Shown here: piece by piece, positions 25,151-38,821 of the stretch
Layout of the letters: the number at the start of each line of letters is the position of its first letter
Position numbering within the stretch: position 1 is the first letter of the stretch
Assembly: GCA_014695325.1 (NCBI GenBank)
Contig: JACJNZ010000064.1
Coordinates: 1 to 40,196, forward strand
DNA: 40,196 bases
From: Cyanobacteria bacterium FACHB-502
GTDB lineage: Bacteria; Cyanobacteriota; Cyanobacteriia; Elainellales; Elainellaceae
Direction: 5' to 3'
Made by a program: the position numbers and the translations under genes
The notes under the pieces: model-generated
What the model saw: the letters and a program-made list of their open reading frames with translations, nothing else
What the model was told of the DNA's origin: nothing
Database searches by the model: none

Positions 25151-25639
25151 TTATTTGAAGAACGGTAGCAAGTCATACTCCTGACGAATATCCAGGAGAG
25201 ATCGATCCATCAACGGTTCAAAATTCAGAAAAGGTAACAGCTTCTGGCGATTTCGAGTTTTAAACCAAATCGGAATTAATTCTAGAACCACTCCAGGAAG
25301 TACTTTCAGAATTGAGCCATACAGCCAAAGAGTTCCCTTTTTTTTGATCATATCTTCGTACATCACATCAACAGCAGGGGAGTTTTTCATCTTGAGATAG
25401 GTCTGAAACGTACATTCACTCGTCCACCAAAACAAAGGAAGGATTTTCAATTCATCAAGCATTCCTGTGTCACAACCGTAGATGACATGACCCACATCAT
25501 GGGCACGGAGAATTTTGGCAAAGTCTGAGGGTTGGGTTGCCGGATCGGTGATGTGGGGGTTGAGAGCATAATACTCTGCAAGTCCTTCTCGCAAGGTTTG
25601 GGTACTGTTTTTATCGATGTAGCGAGGACGTCGTTGCAT
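25151..25639 (-). CDS. Coq4-like protein
   Basis: A 162-residue protein carrying His47-Asp48-x2-His51-x11-Glu63, exactly the His-Asp-x2-His-x11-Glu zinc signature of Coq4. In mitochondria Coq4 organises the ubiquinone biosynthesis complex and has been linked to decarboxylation and hydroxylation of the ring. Cyanobacteria make plastoquinone, so the role here is open. A C-terminal hydrophobic stretch (Val-Leu-Pro-Gly-Val-Val-Leu-Glu-Leu-Ile-Pro-Ile-Trp) may sit at the membrane. It is the first gene of a likely two-gene operon with the phosphatase and is divergent from a TetR regulator, with a palindrome between them. Confidence 0.65.
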   Translation of the reverse strand: MQRRPRYIDKNSTQTLREGLAEYYALNPHITDPATQPSDFAKILRAHDVGHVIYGCDTGMLDELKILPLFWWTSECTFQTYLKMKNSPAVDVMYEDMIKKKGTLWLYGSILKVLPGVVLELIPIWFKTRNRQKLLPFLNFEPLMDRSLLDIRQEYDLLPFFK

Positions 25640-26306: not shown

Positions 26307-27208
26307 TATAGAACCCATTTGAGATCTATGCACTTGCTAACCGCTTGAGCATTAATCAGATAAAAAACAGGTTGAGCTTTGCTCTGGCATGGTCAAGCGT
26401 TCGCTCAAAATTCTTAACCAGACTCTTGCACCGCTCCATCCAGGCATTCGACCGTTCTACTACCCACCGAGTCGCCATAGGGACAAATCCTGTTTTCCCC
26501 TGGGCTGCCTTTTGTGCCTTGGTTGGCTTCAGAGCCAGTTCAAAGCGAATCTTGGTCATCATCTGTGGTAAATTTGCTGCAAGGCAGCAATGAGCTTGTC
26601 GGGGTGATATCCGTGGTCAAGCAAGATTGTAATCTTAGGAATGTTAACGGGTTTAATCCGAAAGTAATCGAGATTACGGCTCAATAGTTCAATTAACCCT
26701 TGGGCATCTGAAACATTGGCTTTAGTGCATTAGGTGAAGCAGGGAAACCCCAAAGTATCAATGGCAAGATGACGTTTAATGCCATTGGTGCACTTGTAGT
26801 GACAAAATTCCTTGGGACAATGCTTGCGTTGCAAGTGTTTTTGACAGCTCGCGAGTCAATCATGAGTAAACGTGTCCATTTCAGTTTTTTTACGTTGGCT
26901 CGGACTTGTCCATGCAGTGTTGCCAAGATGCGCTCAAGCACCCCATCAGAGCGCCATTGTTTGTCGTGCCAGAAAACCGTGGAATAAGGCGGTAAGTCTT
27001 TGGGCAAGTCACACCAATTGCAGCCGTCTTTGAGTGGATAGAAGATGCCATCGAGGATTTGCCGTTTGCTCCACTTCGGTGGCCGCGTTTTCTTCTTCTG
27101 AGGTAACAAGGGTTCGATGAGTTCCCACTCTTTGTCAGTTAAGCTGCTGGAGTATGGCATTTATTTTCCAGCTTAGCTCGCCATCAAAGATCCAAGATGG
27201 GTTCTATA
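26307..27208 (-). mobile_element. Degenerate IS5-type insertion sequence
   Basis: The ends form a long inverted repeat: TATAGAACCCAT then TTGAGATCTATG on the left (26307), and the complement of TATAGAACCCAT then CTTGGATCTTTG on the right (ending 27208). The element is about 0.9 kb. The outer TATA may include the target site. The transposase is broken, so it cannot move on its own. Confidence 0.75.
26356..27160 (-). pseudogene. IS5-family transposase, several frame breaks
   Basis: The N-terminal part (ATG 27160) is typical: Leu-Thr-Asp-Lys-Glu-Trp-Glu-Leu-Ile-Glu-Pro-Leu-Leu-Pro, then Ile-Phe-Tyr-Pro-Leu-Lys-Asp-Gly-Cys-Asn-Trp-Cys-Asp-Leu-Pro and Ile-Asp-Ser-Arg-Ala. After about 26830 homology moves to another frame (Asn-Gly-Ile-Lys-Arg-His-Leu-Ala-Ile-Asp-Thr-Leu-Gly), meets stops near 26727 and 26565, and ends with the C-terminal Arg-Trp-Val-Val-Glu-Arg-Ser-Asn-Ala-Trp-Met-Glu-Arg-Cys block. 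Some IS5 groups use one programmed frameshift, but several stops here show decay. Confidence 0.8.
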
Positions 27209-27218
27209 AAGGAACGAC

Positions 27219-30200
27219 TTATTTCTGAAGAAGAGATGAGGTTGGAATACTCAGTCCTGTCAATTTCCTTCTGCTGACAGGAACCTCTAGGAAGCCGCGA
27301 TCGATGAAATAGTTAAAGTACGTTTGCAGGAGTGAATCAGACAGGACAGGACAGGAAATATCGCTCTCGGCAAGTGCTTGAAGGGTTTGTTGACAGTTAA
27401 AATCAGGCTTAAAGGATTGTTGATAGAGTTCCAGAATGGTGAGGGAGTGCTCTGACCAGGGTTTGAGGAAGAAAGGACGGAGCGGGTAGAGCGGATTATT
27501 CTGGCAGAGCGTCAGCTGCTTAATTTCAGCCTGCCAATTGCGATAAGACAATCGCTGGAGCGAATAGCCAAACGATCGCATCCAATCAAACAAATCATTC
27601 CAGGGTAGAGACTGGGGATTCATCAGGTGAAAGGTTTGATTTAGTTGGGTAGATTGCAGGGACAGATGGGCGATCGCTCCGCTCACATAATCAACCGGAG
27701 ATAAATCGAGCAGCAACTCCAGATCGGGCGCACTTCCCATCTGAATACAGCCCTTGAAAATGCGGCACATAAAATCATCGGTGTACCAGCTTCCCCGGCG
27801 GCTATGTCCCGAAATGAGCGGCGATCGATAAATGTTTACCGGAATACCCCGATCGCGGGCGGCAAGTACCAGTTGTTCAGCTACCCATTTGCTCTGGGAA
27901 TAGCCCATAAAGATACTTTCACTATGTTTGGGTCGATCGGTCTCTGTGACTACCTTTCCGGCGTAGATGAGTGATTCGTAGGCAGCTACCGTGGAAACAT
28001 AGTGAACGGGTTTCACCTGACCTCGACTTGCCAGCCGCAACACTTCCTGGGTGCCCAGCACGTTACTGGCCTTCAGTTCAGAATAGGCGTAGACAAAATT
28101 CAGGTAGGCGGCACTGTGGTAAATTGAATCGAATAAATCCGCGTAGGCAATAAATTGATCTTCCGTCCAGCCAAAGTACGGTTTTTCCAGATCGCCCAGA
28201 ATTGGCACGATGCGATCGCTGTACTGCCCATGCCAGATACCGTAACCCTCCAGGTTCTTAATAATTCGCGCTTTGCCCTGCTCCGGATTGCTGGCTCGTA
28301 CCAGGCAGTATATCTGCGCTTGAGTTTGCTGTAGCAAATCGTTCAGCAGAAATGCGCCTAGAAATCCAGTGGCTCCAGTGAGGAAAATCGCCTTTGGATG
28401 AGCAACATCGGTCAATATACTGTTGATTGCCCAAATAGCAGGCTGAATGCTGGGATCGAGTGCTGCCTCGGCTTGCAGGTCGAGCGATGAAGTTCCTGGT
28501 GCAGAATTTTGAACTTCTGTGGCTAAATACTCTGCTAGGGCAGCGATCGTGGGAATTTGCCAGAGCAGACTGCTGTCTAAAATCGCAGGCAAACTTAGCT
28601 CGTTTTCCATAGCCTGAATAAATTCCTGTACGGTGACGGAATCCAGCCCATAGTTTAACGGCGATTCCTCTGGCAAAACGGCTTCAGCCCTAAATCCCAG
28701 ACGTTCGCCAATCCAGCGCTGTATCCACGCCTGAATCGATGCCATAGTTTCGCTGGCTTGGGGTTTCGGCTCATCGAGCAGTCTTTCAGGCTGTGATACC
28801 GGATGAATTGCAGGAGGATTCATCTCCTTCTGAAGCAGGGGGTCGCGATCGCGATTTTCACCAGCCATCATCTGTTCCGTATCTCCAATCGCACTGCTGT
28901 ACTCAGCTGTTAACTGCGTGATTAGATCCACTGACAGAAAGACCGCTTCAGCAGGATTGTTCGTTTCCGCTAATTTTTTTTCAAACTGAAGCTGTGCCCA
29001 GGTTGCGGCTCGGCTAAACTTCGGATTTGAGAGACTGCGCCAGCGGCTTACGCTCCACAAAACTGCCCAAGTTGTCAGCTCACCTACAAGTCCCGATGCC
29101 CACTGTGCTTTGGTCATGCGATCGTCTAGATTGGATCGGCTCTGATAACGGTGATGGATTTGTTCTGCCGCCAATTGTAGTTGTTCAGCAATATCATCTC
29201 CCTGAAATTCCCGCAGGAATTGCAGCAGATCTGTCAACTGATTCATCACCCGTGAACCCAGGAAATAATTTAACGCTTCGGTTGGTCCTTCTAAAATTCG
29301 CAGAATCCGCGCGTCGCGTAGGAGTTGAGGGGCAATATTGGTTTCGATATAGCCTCGACCTCCCAAAATCTGTACGAGCTGGTCGGTTGCCTGCCAGAAG
29401 AACTCAGTAGCAGCAGTCTTACAAACGGTGTAGGCTTCAACAGGAACCGTCATACCCGTATCTAGCCGTTCTGCGATCGTAGAAACTAACGCTTCGGTTG
29501 CCGCGATCGCTGCCGTCAAGTCATTGAGACGCATCAGCGTCACAGAATTTTCTAGCAGTCTGCCGGAGGAAATCGTTCGGCGATCGGCGTAGCGCATCAT
29601 CAGCTGGGCGCAGCGTTTCATGCCGCCAATGCAGTTTGCTGCAATGCTAAGTCGTCCGTACATCATGGCATCCTGCGCCACAGTCATTCCTGCACCTGCC
29701 GTTCCTAGCAATTGCCCCGCCTCCACGGGCACGCCTTCCAGAAACACAGTATTCTGTACCATGCCTCGCATTCCCATCGTGAGGGCTTCCGGTCCCTGCC
29801 GCAGTCCAGGTACGTTTTGACGGAGGGTAAAGGCACTCATACCAATTGTTTTGCCCTGATCGTTTTGCTGCTTCACAAACACATTCAGCACACCTGCCCA
29901 AGCAGCAGAACCACTCCAAATCTTTGTCCCATAAAGATGCCAGTGATCGCCTCCCACAGGAATGGCTTGAGCCGCGATCGCCTGAGGATTTGATCCGGCA
30001 CCAGGTTCAGTAATGGCAAACGCACCAAGTTCTCGTCCTGCAGCAAGCATTGGCAGCAGTTCAGCTTTGAGTGCTTTGGAGCCGTAGTGGAGGATGGGAC
30101 GAATTCCCAGCACGTTGTTGAGAGCGGTGAACAGTGCCAGCGTTTGATCGATTGCGCCAATCTGCTCGAAGATGCGAAGCGTGCTGCAATGGCTAAGGGC

Positions 30201-32297
30201 AATGCCGCCATAACTTTCAGGCACCTGCATTCCTAAAAGTCCCTGGTTGCCAAAATCCAGGACGATATAGGGCGGAATCGATCGTCGCTCATCGATCAAC
30301 TGGGAGTTAATGCGCGTTGCATTGTAGTCCCGCAGCCAATGAACTAACTCATCTGCTTTCGCCTGGGTTGGATCATCGCTAGGCGGATTCAGTTGAGCCG
30401 GAGCCGCTGAATTGATGCTGGCCATATGCGGAATGGGCAGTCTCGACTCTGCAATCACTTCCAGTGTCTCTGCCAGGAAACTTGCCCGACAGGCTCGCCG
30501 CTGAATCTTGCCGCTGGAGGTTTTGAGAATACTGCCCGTTTGCAGCAGCAGAATGGCATAGACTTGCAGTTCGTGATGTTCAGCGACCGACTGTCGAATT
30601 TGCCAGAATACCTCCTCGGTGTCGAGGGGCTGACGAGTTGCTGGATCATTACCCGGATCAACCTCCACCTGACGACGATCCTGCCGTCTGCAATCAACTG
30701 AGACAGGCTGCTGCTTCTGCCGTCGAATCCGATAGCGCCGCTCTACCTCTGCTACCACGACCAGCCGTTCTTCCCCTTCGACCTCCACTGAAAATGCTGC
30801 ACTACAGGAAGACCGAATCGAAGGATGGCTTTTTTCAACGGTAGTTTCAATATCTTGCGGATAGTGATTTCGTCCCCGAACGATCACCACATCCTTCAAA
30901 CGACCTGTGATATACAGCTCACCGTTGCGTAAAAAGCCTAAATCTCCGGTGCGTAGAAATGGACCTGCGCCCGTATCTTTTAGATAGGCATGAAACGTTT
31001 CTTCTGTTGCCTGCGGATTTTGCCAGTAGCCTTGGGCAACGCTCGCTCCCGACACCCAAATTTCTCCAATTTCATTCTCCGCACAGCTTGTTAGATGTTC
31101 TGGATGGGCAATGGCAATTTCAGCGTCTAGCCAGGTTCGTCCGCAACCAACGATCGTCCGACTCGGCTGTTCTATCCCGGCTTCAATGACCCGATTCTGC
31201 TCTAACGCCGCTGTTTCTGCATTGCAGTAGATCGGATTCTCGTGAACCAGGCCCCCCGAAATCATGAGTGTTGCTTCTGCCATGCCATAGCAGGGATAGA
31301 AGTACTCTGCCCGAAATCCGCAAGGCTCAAAGGCTGCAATAAATTGGTCAATGGTCGATCGTCGGATGGGTTCAGCGCCGCAATAGGCATTCGTCCAGCT
31401 GCTTAGATCGAGCGATCGCTTCTGATCCTCAGTGATTTTGTGAGTGCATAGCTCGTAGGCAAAATTCGGTGCACCGCTGTGGGTAGCACGATAGCGAGAA
31501 ATGGTTTGCAGCCAGCGAATGGGTTTCTGCAGGAATGCAGTGGGCGGCATGAGAATGCCAAGAATACCGGAATAGATAGGCTGTAATAGCCCTTCAATCA
31601 AACCCATGTCATGGAAATTAGGCAACCAAGTGACGGAAATTCCCTCGTCTGTGATGCCAAACGCCTGTTTCATGTACGCCAGGTTATGGAGCAAATTGTG
31701 ATGGCTAACCATCACCCCTTTAGGATTGCCCGTTGAGCCAGAGGTGTACTGCAAAAAGGCTAAAGTATCAGGCTGTATTGCTGGCACCTGCCATGTTTCA
31801 ATTTTCGCTTTCCCAGTTCGCTCCGGGCTAATTTCATCTGTGGTGATCCATCTCATCGAGGCAAGATCGGGTGCATCCTCAAAGCGTTGTTCAATTCCAG
31901 AAAAAATCGTGCCGGTTGTTAAAACGATCGTGGCTCCAGCGTCCGCGATAATCGTGTTCAAACGATTGATCGATCGATTGGGACGAGGCGGATTAGCAGG
32001 AACGGCAATGATTCCGGCGTACAAACATCCGAAAAAAGCCGCAATAAATTCTAAGCCAGAGGGATAGATAAGCAGAGCGCGATCGCCAAACTGCGAACAG
32101 TTTTGGAGCTGCGTGGCAATCGCTTGCGCTAGGGCATCGAGTTCCTGATAGGTCAGCCGTCCCGTTTCTTCTTCCCCTTCCTGTAGAAAGGCAAACGCGC
32201 ATTGTCGAGGTTGGGTAAGAGCGCGATGTCGCAGCAAATCAATCAGCGTAGAAAACTGCGATTCGTTTTTTTGAGAGGACATAATCTGCTGCGACAT
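27219..32297 (-). CDS. Multidomain FAAL / acyl-CoA dehydrogenase / ACP / thioester reductase
   Basis: A protein of 1692 residues from ATG 32297 (a TTG at 32312 or ATG at 32282 are alternatives). Domains: fatty acyl-AMP ligase (about 1-620; Tyr-Thr-Ser-Gly-Ser-Thr-Gly at 184, the FAAL-type Pro-Pro-Arg-Pro-Asn-Arg-Ser segment and Gly-Arg-x-Lys-Asp); acyl-CoA dehydrogenase (about 650-1090; Ala-Ile-Thr-Glu-Pro-Gly-Ala-Gly-Ser near 765 and Leu-Glu-Gly-Pro-Thr-Glu with likely catalytic Glu1003); acyl carrier domain (Gly-Leu-Asp-Ser, Ser1220); and thioester reductase (Thr-Gly-Ala-Thr-Gly-Phe-Leu-Gly near 1310, Tyr1466-x3-Lys). Predicted action: activate a fatty acid as acyl-AMP, load it on the built-in carrier, possibly make it 2,3-unsaturated, and release it with NADPH as aldehyde or alcohol. 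It is divergent from the plsC-HAD-agpS genes and fully intact. Confidence 0.9.
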   Translation of the reverse strand: MSQQIMSSQKNESQFSTLIDLLRHRALTQPRQCAFAFLQEGEEETGRLTYQELDALAQAIATQLQNCSQFGDRALLIYPSGLEFIAAFFGCLYAGIIAVPANPPRPNRSINRLNTIIADAGATIVLTTGTIFSGIEQRFEDAPDLASMRWITTDEISPERTGKAKIETWQVPAIQPDTLAFLQYTSGSTGNPKGVMVSHHNLLHNLAYMKQAFGITDEGISVTWLPNFHDMGLIEGLLQPIYSGILGILMPPTAFLQKPIRWLQTISRYRATHSGAPNFAYELCTHKITEDQKRSLDLSSWTNAYCGAEPIRRSTIDQFIAAFEPCGFRAEYFYPCYGMAEATLMISGGLVHENPIYCNAETAALEQNRVIEAGIEQPSRTIVGCGRTWLDAEIAIAHPEHLTSCAENEIGEIWVSGASVAQGYWQNPQATEETFHAYLKDTGAGPFLRTGDLGFLRNGELYITGRLKDVVIVRGRNHYPQDIETTVEKSHPSIRSSCSAAFSVEVEGEERLVVVAEVERRYRIRRQKQQPVSVDCRRQDRRQVEVDPGNDPATRQPLDTEEVFWQIRQSVAEHHELQVYAILLLQTGSILKTSSGKIQRRACRASFLAETLEVIAESRLPIPHMASINSAAPAQLNPPSDDPTQAKADELVHWLRDYNATRINSQLIDERRSIPPYIVLDFGNQGLLGMQVPESYGGIALSHCSTLRIFEQIGAIDQTLALFTALNNVLGIRPILHYGSKALKAELLPMLAAGRELGAFAITEPGAGSNPQAIAAQAIPVGGDHWHLYGTKIWSGSAAWAGVLNVFVKQQNDQGKTIGMSAFTLRQNVPGLRQGPEALTMGMRGMVQNTVFLEGVPVEAGQLLGTAGAGMTVAQDAMMYGRLSIAANCIGGMKRCAQLMMRYADRRTISSGRLLENSVTLMRLNDLTAAIAATEALVSTIAERLDTGMTVPVEAYTVCKTAATEFFWQATDQLVQILGGRGYIETNIAPQLLRDARILRILEGPTEALNYFLGSRVMNQLTDLLQFLREFQGDDIAEQLQLAAEQIHHRYQSRSNLDDRMTKAQWASGLVGELTTWAVLWSVSRWRSLSNPKFSRAATWAQLQFEKKLAETNNPAEAVFLSVDLITQLTAEYSSAIGDTEQMMAGENRDRDPLLQKEMNPPAIHPVSQPERLLDEPKPQASETMASIQAWIQRWIGERLGFRAEAVLPEESPLNYGLDSVTVQEFIQAMENELSLPAILDSSLLWQIPTIAALAEYLATEVQNSAPGTSSLDLQAEAALDPSIQPAIWAINSILTDVAHPKAIFLTGATGFLGAFLLNDLLQQTQAQIYCLVRASNPEQGKARIIKNLEGYGIWHGQYSDRIVPILGDLEKPYFGWTEDQFIAYADLFDSIYHSAAYLNFVYAYSELKASNVLGTQEVLRLASRGQVKPVHYVSTVAAYESLIYAGKVVTETDRPKHSESIFMGYSQSKWVAEQLVLAARDRGIPVNIYRSPLISGHSRRGSWYTDDFMCRIFKGCIQMGSAPDLELLLDLSPVDYVSGAIAHLSLQSTQLNQTFHLMNPQSLPWNDLFDWMRSFGYSLQRLSYRNWQAEIKQLTLCQNNPLYPLRPFFLKPWSEHSLTILELYQQSFKPDFNCQQTLQALAESDISCPVLSDSLLQTYFNYFIDRGFLEVPVSRRKLTGLSIPTSSLLQK

Positions 32298-33005
32298 ATT
32301 TTTTGCCGTCAAAACAATAAGCTTTGGAAATAACTTTTCTTGTCATTTCTATAAGCAATAGAAAACCTTAGAAAACTGCTATAACAACAGCTTAGTCAAT
32401 TCAAGATTGAATCTTTTCATCAAGGCTGAAGTTAACAAAGAATACACCGCTTTCTAAGGCGTTACATACCGAACACTGTTACATTAGATACTACCAACAC
32501 CAAACTCGTTATAGTCAATACCTTTGATAAAACCTGTATTTAACGAAACGTATAAAGCAGTTGAGCCCAAATTAGTAGCAAGAACACATTTATAAAGTCC
32601 TCCTATAGTTTTATAGGAAAAAGTACCAATTTCCTAAGTGAAATTGCTGAATTAAATTTTTCATAAAAATTTTTTTGTGGGAAGTTACGCATTCTCCTTT
32701 TTATCTTTTAGTTCATGATGTGACGTGAGAAATTCAGGACTGCTCAGTACAAAATCAGAACCATCCCGAAAGTGACATTCTTTACAAGAACATCAGCATT
32801 TTCCTTGCCAGAAAATTAAACTTCTACAAAAGTTTGAGAAATCTATAATGAGCCTTTTTGATTTTTGGACGGGGTTCAGGGGTGAAACCTCTGCCCTCTG
32901 TTCACAGGCAATTTGCGAACGCTATAGCTTGAATTTATCTGTTGACGATAGTGCTTACCAGTGAAGCCAACCTGAATCTTACGTCAAGCAAAACAAGAGT
33001 GATGA
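32298..33005. promoter_or_regulatory. AT-rich divergent control region of the lipid cluster
   Basis: About 700 bases between the divergent megasynthase and plsC genes, with no protein homology. It must hold both promoters; I cannot place them with confidence. A compact perfect hairpin TCCTATA-GTTT-TATAGGA lies at 32601-32618, and AGGGGT...ACCTCT-type pairing occurs near 32878-32892. Confidence 0.5.
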
Positions 33006-33758
33006 ATGTTAGTTGACTCTGGAAAGAATCTAAACTCATCTCATGGTGGAAGCTTAAGCTCAACCCTCCAGGAGGCCGGATTAAATCTTGTTCAGCAAGG
33101 ACTACAAAGCTGTATTTGGCACAGCGGAAAATTCGTCCTGGAAACTGGCTTTCGGCTCCAATGTCAGGGAAGAGAATATTTGCCAGAACATCAGCCCTAT
33201 ATCATCGCAGCGAACCATGCTAGCCATCTGGACGGTCCAGCAATTATTGCGGCGTATGGCAAACCGCTCACCACAATTTATAGTTTGGCAGCCAGAGATT
33301 ATTTTTTCGATCGCCCCACCAAGCAATGGATTTCCGGCAAACTGCTGAACCTCATTCCCTGTAATCGCGGCAGCTTTTTTCGAGATTGCCTGCCGATCTG
33401 CAAGGAGATCCTGACTCAGAATAAAACCATTCTCATCTTTCCAGAAGGCACCCGATCTGCAACGGGAGAACTGCAAGCTTTTAAGGCTGGTTTTGGTTTT
33501 TTGGCGTTAAAGCTTGGCGTTCCCATCGTACCTGCCTACATTGCGGGTAGCTATCAGGCTTTACCCAAAGGGCAACGCTTTCCGCGCAGATGTTCCATTA
33601 ATGTCACTTTTGGGAAACTTCTGGGTATCGAATCGTATCCGGTCGGGGAGGGGCGAGCCAGCAACCGACAACTTTATCAGAAAATTGCTGATGATGTGCG
33701 TTCTGCGATCGTGAATTTACAGGAGCAGCGTTTTTGCTCATTGGAGAATCTGAATTAA
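33006..33758 (+). CDS. PlsC-family lysophospholipid acyltransferase
   Basis: A 250-residue acyltransferase with the two hallmark motifs: Asn-His71-x4-Asp76 (His-Ala-Ser-His-Leu-Asp) and Phe-Pro-Glu-Gly-Thr-Arg-Ser at 145-151, followed by Val-Pro-Ile-Val-Pro-Ala-Tyr-Ile. Such enzymes transfer acyl chains from acyl-ACP or CoA to glycerol-phosphate lipids at the membrane. In this cluster it may acylate dihydroxyacetone phosphate (as animal GNPAT does to make the AGPS substrate) or acylate the ether lipid product. The HAD gene begins 5 bases after its stop, so the genes are an operon. The start at 33006 could be later; the conserved part begins near residue 45. Confidence 0.88.
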   Translation: MLVDSGKNLNSSHGGSLSSTLQEAGLNLVQQGLQSCIWHSGKFVLETGFRLQCQGREYLPEHQPYIIAANHASHLDGPAIIAAYGKPLTTIYSLAARDYFFDRPTKQWISGKLLNLIPCNRGSFFRDCLPICKEILTQNKTILIFPEGTRSATGELQAFKAGFGFLALKLGVPIVPAYIAGSYQALPKGQRFPRRCSINVTFGKLLGIESYPVGEGRASNRQLYQKIADDVRSAIVNLQEQRFCSLENLN

Positions 33759-33763
33759 CGATC

Positions 33764-34390
33764 ATGGACTCAAAACAGCCTGTCGCAATCTTTGACTTCG
33801 ATGGAACATTGACCAATCAGGATAGCTTCCTGCCTTTTCTGCGCTGGACTCACAGCCAAAAATCGGTTTGGACAGGCTTGTACAGGTGCAGTTCAACAGT
33901 GGTATCGTACCTGTTAGGGCGATGTTCTAATCGGGACATTACTGAAAAACTATTAACCCAGTTTTATCAAGGTTGGTCGAGCGAAACGCTGCAAACGCTG
34001 GCGATTGGATTTGCCCATCAAGACTTACCCAAGCTCATTAACCCTGAAGCGATCGCGCAGTTGAAATGGCATCAGGAACAGGGGCATCAGGTGATTCTAG
34101 TCAGTGCTGCCTTAGAAATTTATCTTCAACCATGGGCTGAAATGATGCACATCGACAAAACCCTGGCGAATCGTTTGGAAATTCATCAGGGAACCATTAC
34201 GGGTAAGTTACAGGAAGAAAATTGCTATGGATTTGAGAAAGAAAAACAGCTCAGGCAGCTTTTGGGCGATCTAAGCCACTACTATCTCTATGCCTATGGT
34301 GACAGTAAAGCCGATCGTCATGTATTGGCGATCGCTGATGAACCGTATTACCGAAAATTCAAGGGTAATCAGCGCATCATGATTCGCTAA
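33764..34390 (+). CDS. HAD-IB family phosphatase
   Basis: A 208-residue hydrolase of the SerB-like HAD subfamily IB. Motif I is Phe-Asp-Phe-Asp-Gly-Thr-Leu-Thr (nucleophile Asp11, acid Asp13), motif II is in Ile-Leu-Val-Ser-Ala, and motif IV is Gly-Asp-Ser-Lys-Ala-Asp (Asp180, Asp184). The start at 33764 is chosen because motif I then lies at the usual distance from the N-terminus; a start at 33734 would overlap plsC. HAD-IB proteins next to PlsC genes are known as lipid or phosphate-ester phosphatases. Here it may dephosphorylate alkyl-DHAP or a phosphatidate-like ether lipid. Confidence 0.85.
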   Translation: MDSKQPVAIFDFDGTLTNQDSFLPFLRWTHSQKSVWTGLYRCSSTVVSYLLGRCSNRDITEKLLTQFYQGWSSETLQTLAIGFAHQDLPKLINPEAIAQLKWHQEQGHQVILVSAALEIYLQPWAEMMHIDKTLANRLEIHQGTITGKLQEENCYGFEKEKQLRQLLGDLSHYYLYAYGDSKADRHVLAIADEPYYRKFKGNQRIMIR

Positions 34391-34456
34391 TAGAAATCAA
34401 TTAGACATAAAGACGAGTTCTATTCATTACAAAACAAATTGATTGGGAAATAGAAA

Positions 34457-36223
34457 ATGGTCAAGCAAGAAACATCTCAAGCGAATCAAACTGACAATAA
34501 ACAGTGGGAACATAAATGGGGCTTTGCGGATACGGAATTTACTGTGAACGACGATCGCTCCGTCACCCTGACCGGAAACCGCTATCCTTTGTGCGGGCTG
34601 AAGCTGCCCGGATTTCTGCCCTACATGGAAAAAGCCCTGGGTGTTGCCATCGATTGGGATAATCCGCGTCAGGAGGTAGTGAATAAGCCGATCGCGCCGC
34701 CGCACCAGAATGAGTCTTTTTGCGCTGAGATTGCGGAACGCTTTCCCTCACGCTGTTTTTCCCAGGAAGATGGGGATCGGCTGCGCCATAGCCATGGATA
34801 TACCATGATCGATGAAACGAATAAGGTGCTGTACGATCGCTTAGAACGAGCAGCGGATATGGTGTTTTACTGTGAATCCGAGAGCGATGTCCAAACCTTA
34901 GTTCAACTTGCAGTCAGGCATAATGTTTGTCTGGTTCCCTATGGTGGGGGCACCAGCGTCAGTGGGGCACTAATTCTGCCTTCTGAAGAGGACCGCATGA
35001 TCGTGGTCGTGGACACCACCCGAATGAATCAGGTTGAATGGATCGATCAAAAGAATGGTCGAGCCTGCGTGCAGGCAGGAATCACTGGCAGGCATTTAGA
35101 AGAAGCCTTGCAAAAGGAAGGATTTACGTCTGGACACGAACCCGACAGCCGCGAATTTTCCACCTTGGGTGGATGGATCGCGACTAACTGTAGCGGCATG
35201 AAAAAGAATCGTTACGGAAACATCGAAGATATTGTTGAAACAATTAATGTTGTCACACCAGCCGGAATTCTGACTCAGCAGTTTCCCAGCCCCCGGTCAT
35301 CCATGGGAATGCAGTTGCAGGACTTATGCTTTGGCAGTGAAGGTAATCTGGGTCTGATTACAAAGGCAGTCATTCGGATTCGTCCGCTGCCCGAGGTCCA
35401 GAAATACGGCTCTCTAATCTTTTCGAACTTCAGCCAGGGTGTTGCTTTTCTTCAGCAGTTGTCTCAGACGAATTTCATTCCTGCCAGCATCCGATTGGTT
35501 GACAACGATCAATTTCAATGGGGACAGTCAATTAAACCGAAACTAACCGGATTTGCGGCATTTGTCGATCGGCTCCAAAAACTCTATCTTTTCAAGGTAT
35601 TAAAGTTTTCTCCGCAAGAGCTTGTTGCTGCAACGCTGCTGATGGAAGGCTCTAAAGAAGAAGTTGCCTATCAAGAAAAGAATATTTATGCCTTAGCCAA
35701 AAAGTATGGTGGGGTTGTAGGCGGATCTTCCAACGGCCAACGGGGCTATCTTCTCACTTATACAATCGCTTACATCGGTCAGTTCATCCTGAAATTCAAC
35801 CTGTTTGGGGAAACATTTGAGACAACCGTTTCGTGGGACAAGATCGAGGCGGTGCGTGAGGCAGTCAGAGAAGAACTCGAATCGCAGCATCAGCAGTTTA
35901 ATCTGCCAGCGAAGCCTTACATCTGCTCTCGCGTGACGCAGGTGTATGCAACAGGCGTTTGTATGTATTTCACGATCCTGCTGTATACCAAGGGGGTTGA
36001 TCACGCACCGGAGGTCTTTAATCAGATTTACGGATCACTCCGGCAAAGAGTCATGGAGCATGGTGGATCAATTTCCCATCATCATGGGGTGGGTAAAATC
36101 CGCAAGAAGTTTATGCAGTCTATTGTTTCACCAACAAGTATTGTGCTGCTGAAAAAGCTGAAGGAAGCCAGCGATCCATTAAATACCTTTGGAATTCGCA
36201 ATAATTTGTTTGGCTTAGATTGA
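34457..36223 (+). CDS. Alkyldihydroxyacetonephosphate synthase (AGPS) homologue, FAD-dependent
   Basis: A 588-residue flavoprotein strikingly like animal AGPS. The order is: an N-terminal block Gly-Asn-Arg-Tyr-Pro-Leu-Cys-Gly-Leu; the FAD loop Tyr-Gly-Gly-Gly-Thr-Ser-Val-Ser (about 162); Gly-His-Glu-Pro-Asp-Ser-x-Glu-Phe-Ser-Thr-x-Gly-Gly-Trp (about 226); Ser-Gly-Met-Lys-Lys-Asn-x-Tyr-Gly-Asn-Ile-Glu-Asp; Pro-Ala-Ser-Ile-Arg-Leu-x-Asp-Asn; Asn-Gly-Gln-Arg-Gly-Tyr-Leu-Leu-Thr-Tyr; and Ser-His-His-His-Gly-Val-Gly-Lys (His541-543). The last two contain residues implicated in AGPS catalysis. AGPS swaps the acyl chain of acyl-DHAP for a fatty alcohol, creating the ether bond. Alternative FAD oxidases (lactate or glycolate type) lack these blocks. 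It lies 66 bases after the HAD gene. Confidence 0.9.
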   Translation: MVKQETSQANQTDNKQWEHKWGFADTEFTVNDDRSVTLTGNRYPLCGLKLPGFLPYMEKALGVAIDWDNPRQEVVNKPIAPPHQNESFCAEIAERFPSRCFSQEDGDRLRHSHGYTMIDETNKVLYDRLERAADMVFYCESESDVQTLVQLAVRHNVCLVPYGGGTSVSGALILPSEEDRMIVVVDTTRMNQVEWIDQKNGRACVQAGITGRHLEEALQKEGFTSGHEPDSREFSTLGGWIATNCSGMKKNRYGNIEDIVETINVVTPAGILTQQFPSPRSSMGMQLQDLCFGSEGNLGLITKAVIRIRPLPEVQKYGSLIFSNFSQGVAFLQQLSQTNFIPASIRLVDNDQFQWGQSIKPKLTGFAAFVDRLQKLYLFKVLKFSPQELVAATLLMEGSKEEVAYQEKNIYALAKKYGGVVGGSSNGQRGYLLTYTIAYIGQFILKFNLFGETFETTVSWDKIEAVREAVREELESQHQQFNLPAKPYICSRVTQVYATGVCMYFTILLYTKGVDHAPEVFNQIYGSLRQRVMEHGGSISHHHGVGKIRKKFMQSIVSPTSIVLLKKLKEASDPLNTFGIRNNLFGLD

Positions 36224-36270
36224 GCTTGATGCAAGCCTTTTCCAGGCTAAGTCTGTACAAAAAACAGAAT

Positions 36271-36309
36271 GCGGGGGCGGAACCTTCTACAAAGGAGCAG
36301 CCCCCTGCC
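36271..36309 (+). terminator. Two-tier hairpin after agpS
   Basis: GGGGGC pairs with GCCCCC, and inside it CCTT pairs with AAGG, in the 154-base gap between the AGPS gene and the aminotransferase. There is no T-run, so it may attenuate, stabilise or process the transcript rather than end it. Confidence 0.45.
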
Positions 36310-36377
36310 GTCTCGTACCTCCTTCCCCTAATTGATGTTCAATGTTCGATCGTTTCATACAGAATTAAACAGTAAAG

Positions 36378-37619
36378 ATGTCGAACCGCTTTTGCTTATA
36401 CCCAAGAATTAATTTAGACATCGGTTTTGCCGACTTGCTTTTTTCCCTTTCCTCTTTGGTCTATCCATTCAAGCAAGAGGAGCCTAAGATTCTTCAGCAA
36501 TTTGCTCAGAATGATAAGCAGGTATTAGTCACTCTATCAGTGAGAACCGCTTTTGATCTGTTATTGCAAGCTTTAGATTTGCCGGAAGGGTCAGAAGTAC
36601 TGATGAGTGCAGTCACTATTCCAGATATGGTGGAGATTGTTAAATCTCACGGTTTGGTTCCAGTTGCAATCAACATTTCTATAGACACACTCGCACCTGA
36701 TATTGATGCATTAGAGCAAAAGATTACTGATAAAACGAAGTTAATTTTAATTGCACATTTATACGGTACAGTTCTAGATTTAACAGCCGTTATTCAAATT
36801 GCAAGAAAGTATAATATTTTGCTGATTGAGGATTGCGCCCAGGCTTTTTGGGGAGACAAGTATTGTGGCGATCGCCAAGCAGATGTCAGCCTATTTAGTT
36901 TTGGACCCATAAAATCCTGTACTGCATTGGGCAGCGCAATTGCCTGTGTAGGCGATCGCGAATTAGCTAACAAAATGCTGGCAATTCAGGCTCAATACCC
37001 CTGCAAAAGCAAGTTCTGGTTTTTCAGAAGAGTTCTTAAATACCTTTTCTTGAAACTACTGACCCTTCCAAGAATATATTTTCTTCTCATGGTAGTAGTC
37101 AATGCTTTGGGCTTTAAGCTTGATGCCATGATTAGCATTCTGCTGCGTAACTTCTCTAAAGGAGATCTCCACAGCAAAATTCGGTATCTTCCTCCCCAGA
37201 AAATGGTTGATCTGTTGTGGCATCGATTGAATAATTATGACAATGAAGCATTCGAGCAACGAGCAAAAAGAGCGCGTTTTGTTCTAGCTCTGTTTTCAGA
37301 CAAAATTAATTATCCTGGCGTACAGGCTACCAATCATTCATTCTGGTTAGTTCCTATATTTGTGGCTAATCCTGTACTTTTGATCAATATCCTTAGAAAT
37401 CATGGCTTTGATGCCACTACAGGCAATACCAGCCTGGTTCATATTGGAAATGATTCGACGCAAAATATACAAAAGAACACATTGCTGGAAAAGCACCTGA
37501 AGCAACAGATTTTATACCTGCCGATTTCCGAATACCTGTCAGAAATAGCACTGATTGATATGGCAGACTTGGTCAGGGAAAACGCATCTCCGACAACTCC
37601 TTTTCTTGATAGGATTTAG
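36378..37619 (+). CDS. DegT/DnrJ/EryC1/StrS-type PLP aminotransferase
   Basis: A 413-residue PLP enzyme. Val-Arg-Thr-Ala-Phe-Asp, Ile-Ala-His-Leu-Tyr-Gly, Ile-Glu-Asp-Cys-Ala-Gln-Ala-Phe-Trp-Gly (PLP pyridine contact) and Phe-Ser-Phe-Gly-Pro-Ile-Lys-Ser (Schiff-base Lys179) match the DegT/StrS fold. Unlike sugar aminotransferases it has a hydrophobic, basic segment (about 212-250: Lys-Tyr-Leu-Phe-Leu-Lys-Leu-Leu then Tyr-Phe-Leu-Leu-Met-Val-Val-Val) that could touch the membrane or bind a lipid substrate. The family aminates keto groups using Glu or Gln. It follows agpS in the same direction after 154 bases, so cotranscription is possible but not certain. The substrate is unknown. Confidence 0.85.
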   Translation: MSNRFCLYPRINLDIGFADLLFSLSSLVYPFKQEEPKILQQFAQNDKQVLVTLSVRTAFDLLLQALDLPEGSEVLMSAVTIPDMVEIVKSHGLVPVAINISIDTLAPDIDALEQKITDKTKLILIAHLYGTVLDLTAVIQIARKYNILLIEDCAQAFWGDKYCGDRQADVSLFSFGPIKSCTALGSAIACVGDRELANKMLAIQAQYPCKSKFWFFRRVLKYLFLKLLTLPRIYFLLMVVVNALGFKLDAMISILLRNFSKGDLHSKIRYLPPQKMVDLLWHRLNNYDNEAFEQRAKRARFVLALFSDKINYPGVQATNHSFWLVPIFVANPVLLINILRNHGFDATTGNTSLVHIGNDSTQNIQKNTLLEKHLKQQILYLPISEYLSEIALIDMADLVRENASPTTPFLDRI

Positions 37620-37979
37620 GGAGCTCAGTTTCACTTTCAACAACGCAATCAGCCTTGAAAATGAGATTTTTGGGTTCGTTCCACTCGATCAACTCTCATA
37701 TTTACACGCCATATTTTTATAATTATCTGAATTAGTGGCTGTGTGACGAACACATTTCTATCTTCGTTGCATCTTAGTTTTGTAGCTTGCCGGAAGGTCA
37801 GCCGATCGCACATCTGTTCATCTGATCCATACACTCGGTATTCCAAAGCTTGGCATTTGGAAGTTCTTATAAATTAGTTCTGGTTCTGAAGGCAGCCTTG
37901 AATTTGCCAGGATCGCAACTGCTAAATTTCTGTATCTTATAGGTTATAAATTGTTAACCCTTATCAGGAAACTAAATTT
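37620..37979. other. Gene-free stretch before the IS1-type element
   Basis: About 360 AT-rich bases downstream of the aminotransferase. I see no protein homology, RNA gene or strong hairpin. Confidence 0.5.
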
Positions 37980-37988
37980 GGTAGTGCG

Positions 37989-38489
37989 TCAAATTAATGT
38001 GGAATAGGTGGCAATGGCGTGCCAACTCCGTGATCGCATTGTTAATCCTGCTCGCTGTGCAGTTGTGGTTTTGAAGCGGCTGTGCTGCCAAATCCAGTTG
38101 AAGTAACTGACGACTAACCGTGTCATCACTTTAGTTTGCTCCCACACCTTGCCAAACTTATTCTGTCGTCGATGCCATCTTCCGGTTTGCTGCCGCAGAA
38201 TTCCATTGGTGCGCTCTAATCGCTGTGTTCTATCCTTGCCAATATGATGTTGGATCTCATCGGGTAAAACCCGTTCGTATCCGCCCCAGTCATCGGTGTT
38301 GAACTGTGTGCATTCGGTCTTTCCTTCGGTGTTGATAACTAATCGCTCAATCAGTTCATCAGTGTGTTTGCCCACGCAAGCAGCGAGAATCAAGCCACTG
38401 GAACAGGCAAGGCTCAAAGCAATCCAACAATCTCCCCGGTTCAATTCCCTGGTTGTGCGTTGCTTCTGTTTTTTGCCACAAATGACCAC
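37989..38489 (-). CDS. insB: IS1-family InsB', expressed by -1 frameshift
   Basis: A 166-residue second frame containing the catalytic domain of the IS1 transposase (Asn-Thr-Asp-Asp-Trp-Gly-Gly-Tyr, then Arg-Leu-Glu-Arg-Thr-Asn-Gly with the catalytic Glu). It is read by slipping back one base on A6C at 38474-38468: the InsA frame Val-Ala-Lys passes to Lys-Gln-Lys-Gln-Arg. A C-terminal tail adds Ser-Arg-Ser-Trp-His. It is intact, so active transposase is plausible. Confidence 0.85.
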   Translation of the reverse strand: MVICGKKQKQRTTRELNRGDCWIALSLACSSGLILAACVGKHTDELIERLVINTEGKTECTQFNTDDWGGYERVLPDEIQHHIGKDRTQRLERTNGILRQQTGRWHRRQNKFGKVWEQTKVMTRLVVSYFNWIWQHSRFKTTTAQRAGLTMRSRSWHAIATYSTLI

Positions 38490-38821
38490 ATTTCATCCGC
38501 ACTGACTTCCTGGGTTTCGACCGCTTGCACCACTTGGTTATGGATCAGTTGTGCTTTTTGACTAGCAGCTCTCACAATGCTCACAACGGTGTTGTAGGCA
38601 AGTCCAACCGTTCGACTAATCCCTCTCAAACTACTGCCTTCGCTGTGGGCTTGTAGAACTTGTCTGATTTGTTCACGGCTGACATGGCGACGGTAATACA
38701 AACTGTCGAACGATTCCGAGAAGGTTTGATGGCAAGCAGGACAGAGATAGCGTTGATGACCGTTAGGCATCTTGCCATGTCGATGGGCTTTGACATAACC
38801 ACACAGAGGGCATTCCATCAC
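38441..38821 (-). CDS. insA: IS1-family InsA
   Basis: A 126-residue first frame of the IS1-type transposase. It has an N-terminal zinc ribbon (Cys-Pro-Leu-Cys, then Cys-Pro-Ala-Cys) and a helix-turn-helix (Leu-Arg-Gly-Ile-Ser-Arg-Thr-Val-Gly-Leu-Ala-Tyr-Asn-Thr-Val) that binds the element ends. Alone, InsA acts as a repressor of transposition in IS1. The slippery heptamer AAAAAAC lies at 38474-38468 near its end, where a -1 shift fuses it to InsB. Confidence 0.88.
   Translation of the reverse strand: MMECPLCGYVKAHRHGKMPNGHQRYLCPACHQTFSESFDSLYYRRHVSREQIRQVLQAHSEGSSLRGISRTVGLAYNTVVSIVRAASQKAQLIHNQVVQAVETQEVSADEMWSFVAKNRSNAQPGN

Follow-up and report, generated by a model that had tools for sequence, protein, structure and literature searches.

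An IS-flanked candidate gene set for AGPS-type ether glycerolipids in a cyanobacterium

The AGPS pathway to ether lipids in animals and Dictyostelium comprises GNPAT, FAR1, the flavoprotein AGPS and an alkyl-dihydroxyacetone phosphate (alkyl-DHAP) reductase. For bacteria, the excerpts of PMC9131029 used here describe ElbD, a single protein that unites FAR1-like, acyl-CoA synthetase, acyl carrier protein (ACP) and acyltransferase domains, and the MXAN_1676-1674 operon, in which the AGPS homologue MXAN_1676 (~42% to human AGPS) adjoins a FAR1-like/GNPAT-like fusion; many questions about the ether lipids that aerobic bacteria make via AGPS are said there to persist. The window analysed here, a stretch of 40,196 bp, is the entire contig C62 of the cyanobacterial genome G000 (6.6 Mb, 99.99% complete), so that nothing past its ends is readable. 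It carries a cluster of five genes, all with open frames (~9.5 kb in total) and with most active-site motifs present, namely a megasynthase gene combining fatty acyl-AMP ligase (FAAL), acyl-CoA dehydrogenase (ACAD), ACP and thioester reductase (TR) and, divergent from it, genes for a PlsC-type acyltransferase, a HAD-IB phosphatase, an AGPS homologue and a pyridoxal phosphate (PLP) aminotransferase. The first-pass annotation, made from the sequence alone, had described the same intact genes in this arrangement, and all of them were found in place; the transposase genes of insertion sequences (IS) lying on both sides were absent from its account. The cluster is best read as an IS-flanked, HAD-type variant of an animal-like, AGPS-type ether-glycerolipid gene set.

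The likeness to the animal and Dictyostelium pathway consists in a full-length AGPS homologue adjoined by an acyltransferase and a presumed alcohol-forming reductase and, elsewhere among cyanobacteria, in a short-chain dehydrogenase/reductase (SDR) linked to AGPS in genomes G889 and G588. The difference is that the FAAL-ACAD-ACP-TR protein would take the place of FAR1, that the acyltransferase is of the PlsC type, that a HAD phosphatase is present and that a glycine replaces Arg515 of the guinea-pig enzyme. With elb and MXAN_1676-1674, as far as the excerpts describe them, the cluster has acyl ligase, ACP, reductase, acyltransferase and HAD functions in common, whereas its separate PlsC, its ACAD domain and the AGPS within the cluster set it apart from elb, as does the lack of an elbA/E-like epimerase gene among the five. 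A HAD-type gene (as elbB) and an acyltransferase function are present, and the megasynthase, unlike ElbD, contains no acyltransferase domain. As the architecture is unlike that of ElbD, the cluster is not an elb cluster, and the earlier comparison with ElbD holds as a list of activities (PMC9131029, in part) but not for the way they are arranged.

A survey of metagenome-assembled genomes found AGPS homologues in many phyla, and where its available excerpts give the phyla that match AGPS or ElbD, Cyanobacteria are not named (PMC11868695). Cyanobacterial thylakoids are described, in a portion of PMC5897459, as predominantly composed of monogalactosyldiacylglycerol, digalactosyldiacylglycerol, sulfoquinovosyldiacylglycerol and phosphatidylglycerol. 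Among the literature matches listed, judged by titles and abstract openings and with subscription literature mostly uncovered, no paper concerned a cyanobacterial AGPS or ether-lipid pathway.

The gene at 34457..36223 (+) encodes a flavoprotein of 588 aa that was assigned to the AGPS clade by phmmer, tree and residues and is a candidate ether-bond-forming enzyme. Residues 16-583 matched guinea-pig AGPS at E=1.5e-157 and the Dictyostelium enzyme was matched at 5.7e-87, the next solved family being the lactate dehydrogenase subunit LctD at 2.8e-24, while the GlcD-like paralogues of its own genome are only 26-28% identical. In a tree of 26 rows the protein fell inside AGPS, beside the copy of Synechococcales CRU_2_2 (100/99), and the 23-row AGPS side had a support of 96/99. 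The outgroups were three GlcD-like paralogues of G000 with branches at the program's length limit, which leaves the root soft, and the rows did not include G588, G762 and G889, so that neither the branching near the root nor the placement of Parabeggiatoa was used. Additionally, the partial L037 was left out and L036, with AGPS in two frames, entered as its first piece. The cyanobacterial copies did not form one clade in this tree. Misannotation of a glycolate or lactate oxidase, the grouping named in the first-pass annotation as what would speak against its proposal, was ruled out by the phmmer matches, the paralogue identities and the tree, and the window protein, by its sequence, belongs to the AGPS clade.

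By alignment, R352, Y508 and R447 of Dictyostelium AGPS, listed as important for catalysis in the part of PMC3509576 consulted, correspond to R419, Y578 and R515 of the guinea-pig enzyme and to R346, Y504 and G441 of the window protein, the numbering of the PDB chain and that of the paper differing throughout by three. The catalytic Tyr504 and Arg346 and the HHH motif (H541-H543) are kept, and Arg515 is replaced by Gly441; the earlier description of the protein as having nearly all blocks of AGPS was exact. Arginine occupies the latter position in 27 of the 29 AGPS proteins with a residue there, and glycine only in the window and in Parabeggiatoa; since the tree neighbour CRU_2_2 has Arg, the change to Gly would have arisen twice in that tree. 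The catalytic residues of L027, L028 and L111, which were outside the motif-filtered set and the tree, were checked separately. Because of Gly441 the protein was filed in the AGPS clade and not as a proven alkyl-DHAP synthase (EC 2.5.1.26). Changes affect 7 of 164 strongly conserved columns in the window copy; of the 21 other bacterial rows, 18 show 1-8 changes and the remaining three 20, 24 and 44 (four partial rows left out), and judged by these columns the window copy is not generally eroded.

The lost arginine bears on the idea that an AGPS-clade protein has changed function and applies its flavin-adduct chemistry to another keto-ester or nucleophile, in the making of a specialised lipid natural product and not of a membrane ether lipid. 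Such a change would suit the occurrence of this glycine in only two proteins, the aminotransferase and the ACAD-bearing synthase beside the window AGPS, and the polyketide synthase (PKS) genes with which the Adonisia AGPS sits, as well as the PKS-like genes on the AGPS contig of CRU_2_2. It is considered unlikely, if still worth bearing in mind, as the other tested catalytic positions are kept, HAD and PlsC are partners that suit a glycerol-phosphate backbone, and the copies of Adonisia, CRU_2_2 and Dulcicalothrix retain Arg in partly similar neighbourhoods.

The megasynthase gene (27219..32312, −) encodes 1697 aa, in which Pfam and NCBIfam domains place AMP-binding at 28-430, ACAD at 656-1014 (three domains), ACP at 1196-1263 and NAD_binding_4 at 1311-1547. 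The thioester reductase scored 345.5 bits with TIGR01746 (cut-off 213.35), and its closest PDB match was MxaA (4u7w, 6.1e-100), which we take to be a four-electron, alcohol-forming reductase. The motifs LQYTSGSTG, LEGPTE, LDSV, TGATGFLG and YSQSKW were found, and the roles given to them, as to the PlsC and HAD motifs below, are those we presume for such motifs. From these features the megasynthase may supply a fatty alcohol. A matching architecture was found in G889 (L124; 1670 aa by Pfam, with an ACAD 71% identical to that of the window) and, by alignment, in G025 (L076; 1731 aa, ACAD 73%). Many of the TR matches were ~500-aa open reading frames (ORFs) of ACP-TR size with 47-52% identity, reminiscent of HglB from the heterocyst glycolipid (hgl) genes. 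At L078, the one ACP-TR locus whose surroundings were read, PKS genes come before and an SDR gene after, presumably as in hgl, and no AGPS, PlsC or HAD was noticed by eye in the ORF list. HglB itself is described in excerpts of PMC8064123 as having ACP and TR domains only, with an unexplored activity.

A divergent intergenic region of 693 bp (32313..33005, from the ORF coordinates) separates the megasynthase from the PlsC gene (33006..33758, +; PF01553, 2.5e-25), whose product carries NHASHLD (NHx4D) and FPEGTR and is a candidate DHAP (or alkyl-glycerol) acyltransferase. It is 31% identical to two paralogues found in its own genome and 44-53% identical to the PlsC proteins near AGPS or FAAL-TR in Adonisia, CRU_2_2, Dulcicalothrix, Symploca, G889 and G762. 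The HAD-IB gene (33764..34390, +), a candidate alkyl-DHAP or alkyl-G3P phosphatase, scored 146.4 bits with TIGR01490 (cut-off 98.3) and has the motifs DFDGT and GDSKAD; ATG at 33764 is the likelier start, and TTG at 33734 is possible. Its homologues are 59% identical in Adonisia, 48% in Dulcicalothrix and 47% in CRU_2_2, where the HAD is fused to an NAD epimerase/reductase domain and lies ~17 kb from AGPS. Promoter and terminator scans gave counts about equal to those of shuffled sequence, promoter-like matches in 32200-38000 not exceeding the shuffles (9 versus a mean of 10.2).

AGPS was found in one of 60 relatives at E<=1e-60, the window's own genome, with a fragment in G045 at 2e-46; in 4 of 388 class genomes at E<=1e-40, that fragment included; and, at that same threshold, in 6 of 388 genomes of Dulcicalothrix's order, a draw that may overlap the class draw. 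When named genomes were scanned with two peptide patterns, 21 loci emerged, 16 of them non-cyanobacterial and five cyanobacterial (Adonisia turfae, Dulcicalothrix desertica, Calothrix rhizosoleniae, Symploca SIO2E6 and CRU_2_2); the patterns are narrow, so more AGPS loci may exist. A plasmid collection held no close AGPS, only two Streptomyces records at 28-31%. Rarity and patchy spread fit transfer, and the gene set was probably acquired horizontally. Together with the window, G045, G588, G762 and G889, the five named cyanobacteria made up the ten AGPS-bearing cyanobacteria whose loci were compared, with tblastn floors of 55 bits at AGPS loci and 45 bits at aminotransferase loci.

Looking for the same gene set in other cyanobacteria, as had been proposed, revealed that its parts recur around AGPS, and once as a single run. 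In G889, genes for FAAL-ACAD-ACP-TR, PlsC, AGPS, SDR, a CdsA-like and a PssA-like protein follow one another on the same strand, neighbours being separated or overlapping by no more than 21 bp. In Dulcicalothrix desertica PCC 7102 a FAAL-ACP-TR gene is divergent from AGPS-HAD, and a FAAL-ACP-PlsC fusion and a zinc dehydrogenase are also encoded; in Adonisia turfae a PlsC-HAD-AGPS set is flanked on each side by a FAAL-ACP gene, one entering a ketosynthase (KS) domain and the other adjoining a PKS gene. A frame-broken PlsC gene adjoins AGPS in CRU_2_2, with ACP and TR genes and the epimerase-HAD fusion 17-25 kb off on the same contig; G762 has PlsC-AGPS close to a contig end; and in Symploca SIO2E6, whose AGPS is cut by a contig end, FAAL-ACP-TR is followed by PlsC on another contig. 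In G588, Psd overlaps AGPS, with desaturase, SDR, CdsA-like and PssA-like genes a few kb off, while a desaturase gene adjoins AGPS in Calothrix and an SDR gene adjoins the AGPS fragment in G045. By gene content, a HAD-bearing layout is found in the window, Adonisia, Dulcicalothrix and CRU_2_2 (there ~17 kb distant).

Some further genes were observed at these loci. FA_desaturase-family genes lie within ~9 kb of AGPS in five cyanobacteria (L036:11773-12720, L125:3518-4474, L021:1340-2317, L126:7106-8251 and L009:19187-19870), directly 3' of AGPS in Calothrix, and, as speculation, the alkyl chain could be their substrate, with even a vinyl-ether desaturase among the possibilities. The Adonisia neighbourhood also encodes an aldehyde-deformylating-oxygenase-like protein (L009:18192-19022, PF11266). 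In three Acidobacteriota an SDR gene stands directly 3' of AGPS (L019:4605-5402, L025:2077-2784 and L035:11761-12609), a candidate alkyl-DHAP reductase.

A second layout, in G889, G588, G762 and Calothrix, is marked by a PssA-like protein with 66-70% conservation between these genomes. CdsA-like and SDR genes accompany it in G889, G588 and G762, on contigs separate from that of AGPS in G762 and Calothrix. In G889 and G588 the PssA-like and CdsA-like proteins score under the curated cut-offs of TIGR00473 and PRK11624, so they are named by family, not by equivalence. Psd, the phosphatidylserine decarboxylase, stands beside AGPS in G588 (L125:3518-11413); in G762, SDR, Psd, PssA-like and CdsA-like genes lie together on another contig (L128), as PssA-like and Psd adjoin in Calothrix rhizosoleniae (L130). 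The CdsA-like/PssA-like set, with Psd where present, points to ether phosphatidylserine or ether phosphatidylethanolamine in these four genomes, and an ether-phosphatidylethanolamine pathway is possible in some cyanobacteria. Psd (PF02666) was found in 4 of 9 AGPS-bearing genomes (G045, with its AGPS fragment, not being among the nine) and in 1 of 51 AGPS-free cyanobacterial genomes, with a one-sided Fisher p=0.0012 that is only a guide because the genomes are related. The Psd matches of Adonisia (410 aa) and G591 (389 aa) are longer and 30% identical to the G588 Psd, compared with 67% for Calothrix and 54% for G762; if only the G588-like type is counted, the figures are 3 of 9 and 0 of 51, and it is absent from 6 of the 9, the window's genome included.

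The last gene of the cluster (36378..37619, +) encodes a DegT/DnrJ/EryC1/StrS-family PLP aminotransferase of 413 aa (5.8e-31), co-directional with AGPS and 154 bp past it, and is a member of the cluster by position only. It carries SFGPIKS, presumably the PLP-lysine site, and SFGxIK[ST] was present in all 14 homologues read. Homologues occur in 16 of 291 class genomes, the window's included, at E<=1e-50; of the remaining 15 genomes, 14 provided loci for comparison, and at 8 of these 12-20 kb of sequence was read. A PlsY-like ORF, recognised by motif only, adjoins the relatives in 6 of 14 loci, five of them in one genus (L040, L041, L043, L045, L046 and L047), which is suggestive, and not more, of a link of these relatives to glycerolipids.

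On the basis of these assignments the following pathway may be proposed, with all of its steps deduced from sequence. FAAL would activate a free fatty acid and load it onto the ACP of the megasynthase, where ACAD may put a 2,3 double bond into the bound chain before the thioester reductase would free it as a primary alcohol. PlsC would acylate DHAP (or, later, the sn-2 position), and the AGPS-clade enzyme would swap the acyl group for the alcohol via a flavin adduct to give 1-O-alkyl-DHAP, from which HAD-IB would take off the phosphate. The C2 ketone would finally be reduced by a dehydrogenase encoded elsewhere or aminated by the adjacent aminotransferase. As the HAD layout is without an SDR, the ketone must be handled by something else, and the HAD-fused reductase domain of CRU_2_2 and the zinc dehydrogenase of Dulcicalothrix are candidates for treating it. 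An alkyl-glycerol is a possible product; a bolder proposal is a 2-amino ether lipid, an alkyl-serinol.

The latter proposal, that the aminotransferase aminates 1-O-alkyl-DHAP or its dephosphorylated form and that, with the HAD step, 1-O-alkyl-serinol results, a look-alike of sphingoid bases with an ether replacing a C-C bond, is regarded as quite unlikely. If true, HAD-type clusters would diverge by their handling of the ketone, with transamination in the window, the HAD-fused reductase in CRU_2_2 and the zinc dehydrogenase in Dulcicalothrix. Gly441 would then reflect an altered substrate, and the CdsA/PssA/Psd branch would make ether phosphatidylethanolamine in other cyanobacteria.

Several observations besides Gly441 weigh against the ether-glycerolipid reading. 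FAAL is near AGPS in 4 of the 10 cyanobacteria, and in 3 of the 10 a HAD gene is no more than two genes away, the window counted; G588 lacks FAAL, TR, PlsC and HAD in 19 kb, as do the AGPS stretches of Calothrix and G045; and none of the 16 non-cyanobacterial AGPS loci, several with short flanks, had FAAL, TR or HAD at 55 bits or more (5 of the 16 had distant PlsC and ACAD). No FAAL, ACAD, ACP, TR, PlsC, HAD or AGPS match of at least 45 bits was found at the 8 aminotransferase loci, and no aminotransferase match at the other cyanobacterial AGPS loci read. The aminotransferase, never found beside AGPS elsewhere, is accordingly not supported as a conserved AGPS partner. Among the cluster genes there is no headgroup gene and no alkyl-DHAP reductase. 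CdsA, PssA-like and Psd genes are all missing from the cluster, the window having no match of the G889 CdsA, the G889 PssA or the G588 Psd (the rest of the genome was not searched for CdsA and PssA), and G000 has no PF02666 match; because its genome is without Psd, ether phosphatidylethanolamine was rejected for the window's strain. Finally, Pontiella has elbD homologues, yet no ether lipids were detected in it according to the excerpts of PMC11868695.

A further point against is G025, whose genome is without AGPS and whose FAAL-ACAD-ACP-TR gene adjoins polysaccharide-type genes. This would suit a megasynthase that is a chance neighbour of a plsC-HAD-AGPS operon and provides glycolipid or wax formation with a fatty alcohol or aldehyde, as would its position on the opposite strand and the fact that, among 291 class genomes at 1e-100, the ACAD-ACP-TR part is matched in 66 while matches over the full length are confined to G000 and G025. 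This is judged improbable, since the G889 megasynthase is co-directional with PlsC-AGPS and ends 21 bp before PlsC, Dulcicalothrix has a like divergent layout, and Symploca links FAAL-ACP-TR to PlsC. The ether-lipid interpretation of the first-pass annotation, which had given the aminotransferase no role, is supported in part and remains the best reading, with partners that recur around AGPS in other cyanobacteria, though this AGPS, with Gly in place of Arg515, is only a candidate alkyl-DHAP synthase. Owing to this change, G025, the partner-poor loci, the missing headgroup gene and the caution from Pontiella, the probability of an IS-flanked, HAD-type, probably acquired ether-glycerolipid gene set is put at about 0.6, and canonical activity of the window AGPS copy is rated lower.

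On the megasynthase side, the cluster is bounded by an IS4/5-family transposase gene (26693..27160, −; 155 aa, PF13340 1.6e-25), 58 bp from the megasynthase end. On the other side, 369 bp past the aminotransferase, lies an IS1-family transposase with InsA-like and DDE ORFs (37989..38821, −; PF03400 4.2e-11, PF03811 8.5e-8). These IS genes, the rarity of the set and the loss of one catalytic arginine would agree with an unexpressed or non-functional island, either of recent acquisition or in decay; with five open frames totalling ~9.5 kb and an AGPS that is not generally eroded, such an island is rated highly improbable. An integrase-like ORF near the contig end (39374..39931, +), probably not part of the pathway, resembles the N-terminal part of a Dulcicalothrix protein (L021:14323-15624; 29% over 157 aa, E 7.6e-14) that lies beside a split nifK and has a sub-cut-off Phage_integrase match (20.4 versus 27.1 bits). 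No tRNA was found in the window. Elsewhere in the window, a protein with an AbiJ_NTD4 domain, possibly of phage-defence type, is encoded at the contig start (146-1048), and a 162-aa protein without Pfam or NCBIfam match (25151-25639) adjoins a dual-specificity-phosphatase-like gene and a TetR regulator.

The Dulcicalothrix nifK (G428:C5) is split into an N-terminal part at 350114-351400 and a C-terminal part at 285275-285538, ~64.6 kb apart. Directly beside the C-terminal half stands a serine recombinase gene (Resolvase and Recombinase domains); at the opposite end of the stretch is the ether-lipid cluster, with HAD ending ~37 bp from the nifK break. The stretch resembles a nifK DNA element with the cluster as part of its cargo; no common word of at least 10 bases was found within 120 bases of both breaks. 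It also encodes (L101:3229-9078) a phosphoenolpyruvate mutase-nucleotidyltransferase fusion (TIGR02320 above cut-off), a second nucleotidyltransferase and a CDP-alcohol phosphatidyltransferase, a set that suggests a phosphonate-headed lipid.

The cyanobacterial AGPS loci form a wider set, some of them with the appearance of almost complete ether-phospholipid pathways. If the reading is true, the phylum would gain a lipid class, AGPS-type ether glycerolipids, with an ether-phosphatidylethanolamine route in some strains, and this class could be sought in the named strains Dulcicalothrix desertica PCC 7102, Adonisia turfae CCMR0081 and Calothrix rhizosoleniae SC01. The interpretation of alkyl-glycerol biomarkers from mats and sediments would be affected as well, as would the question of how aerobic bacteria produce ether lipids via AGPS.

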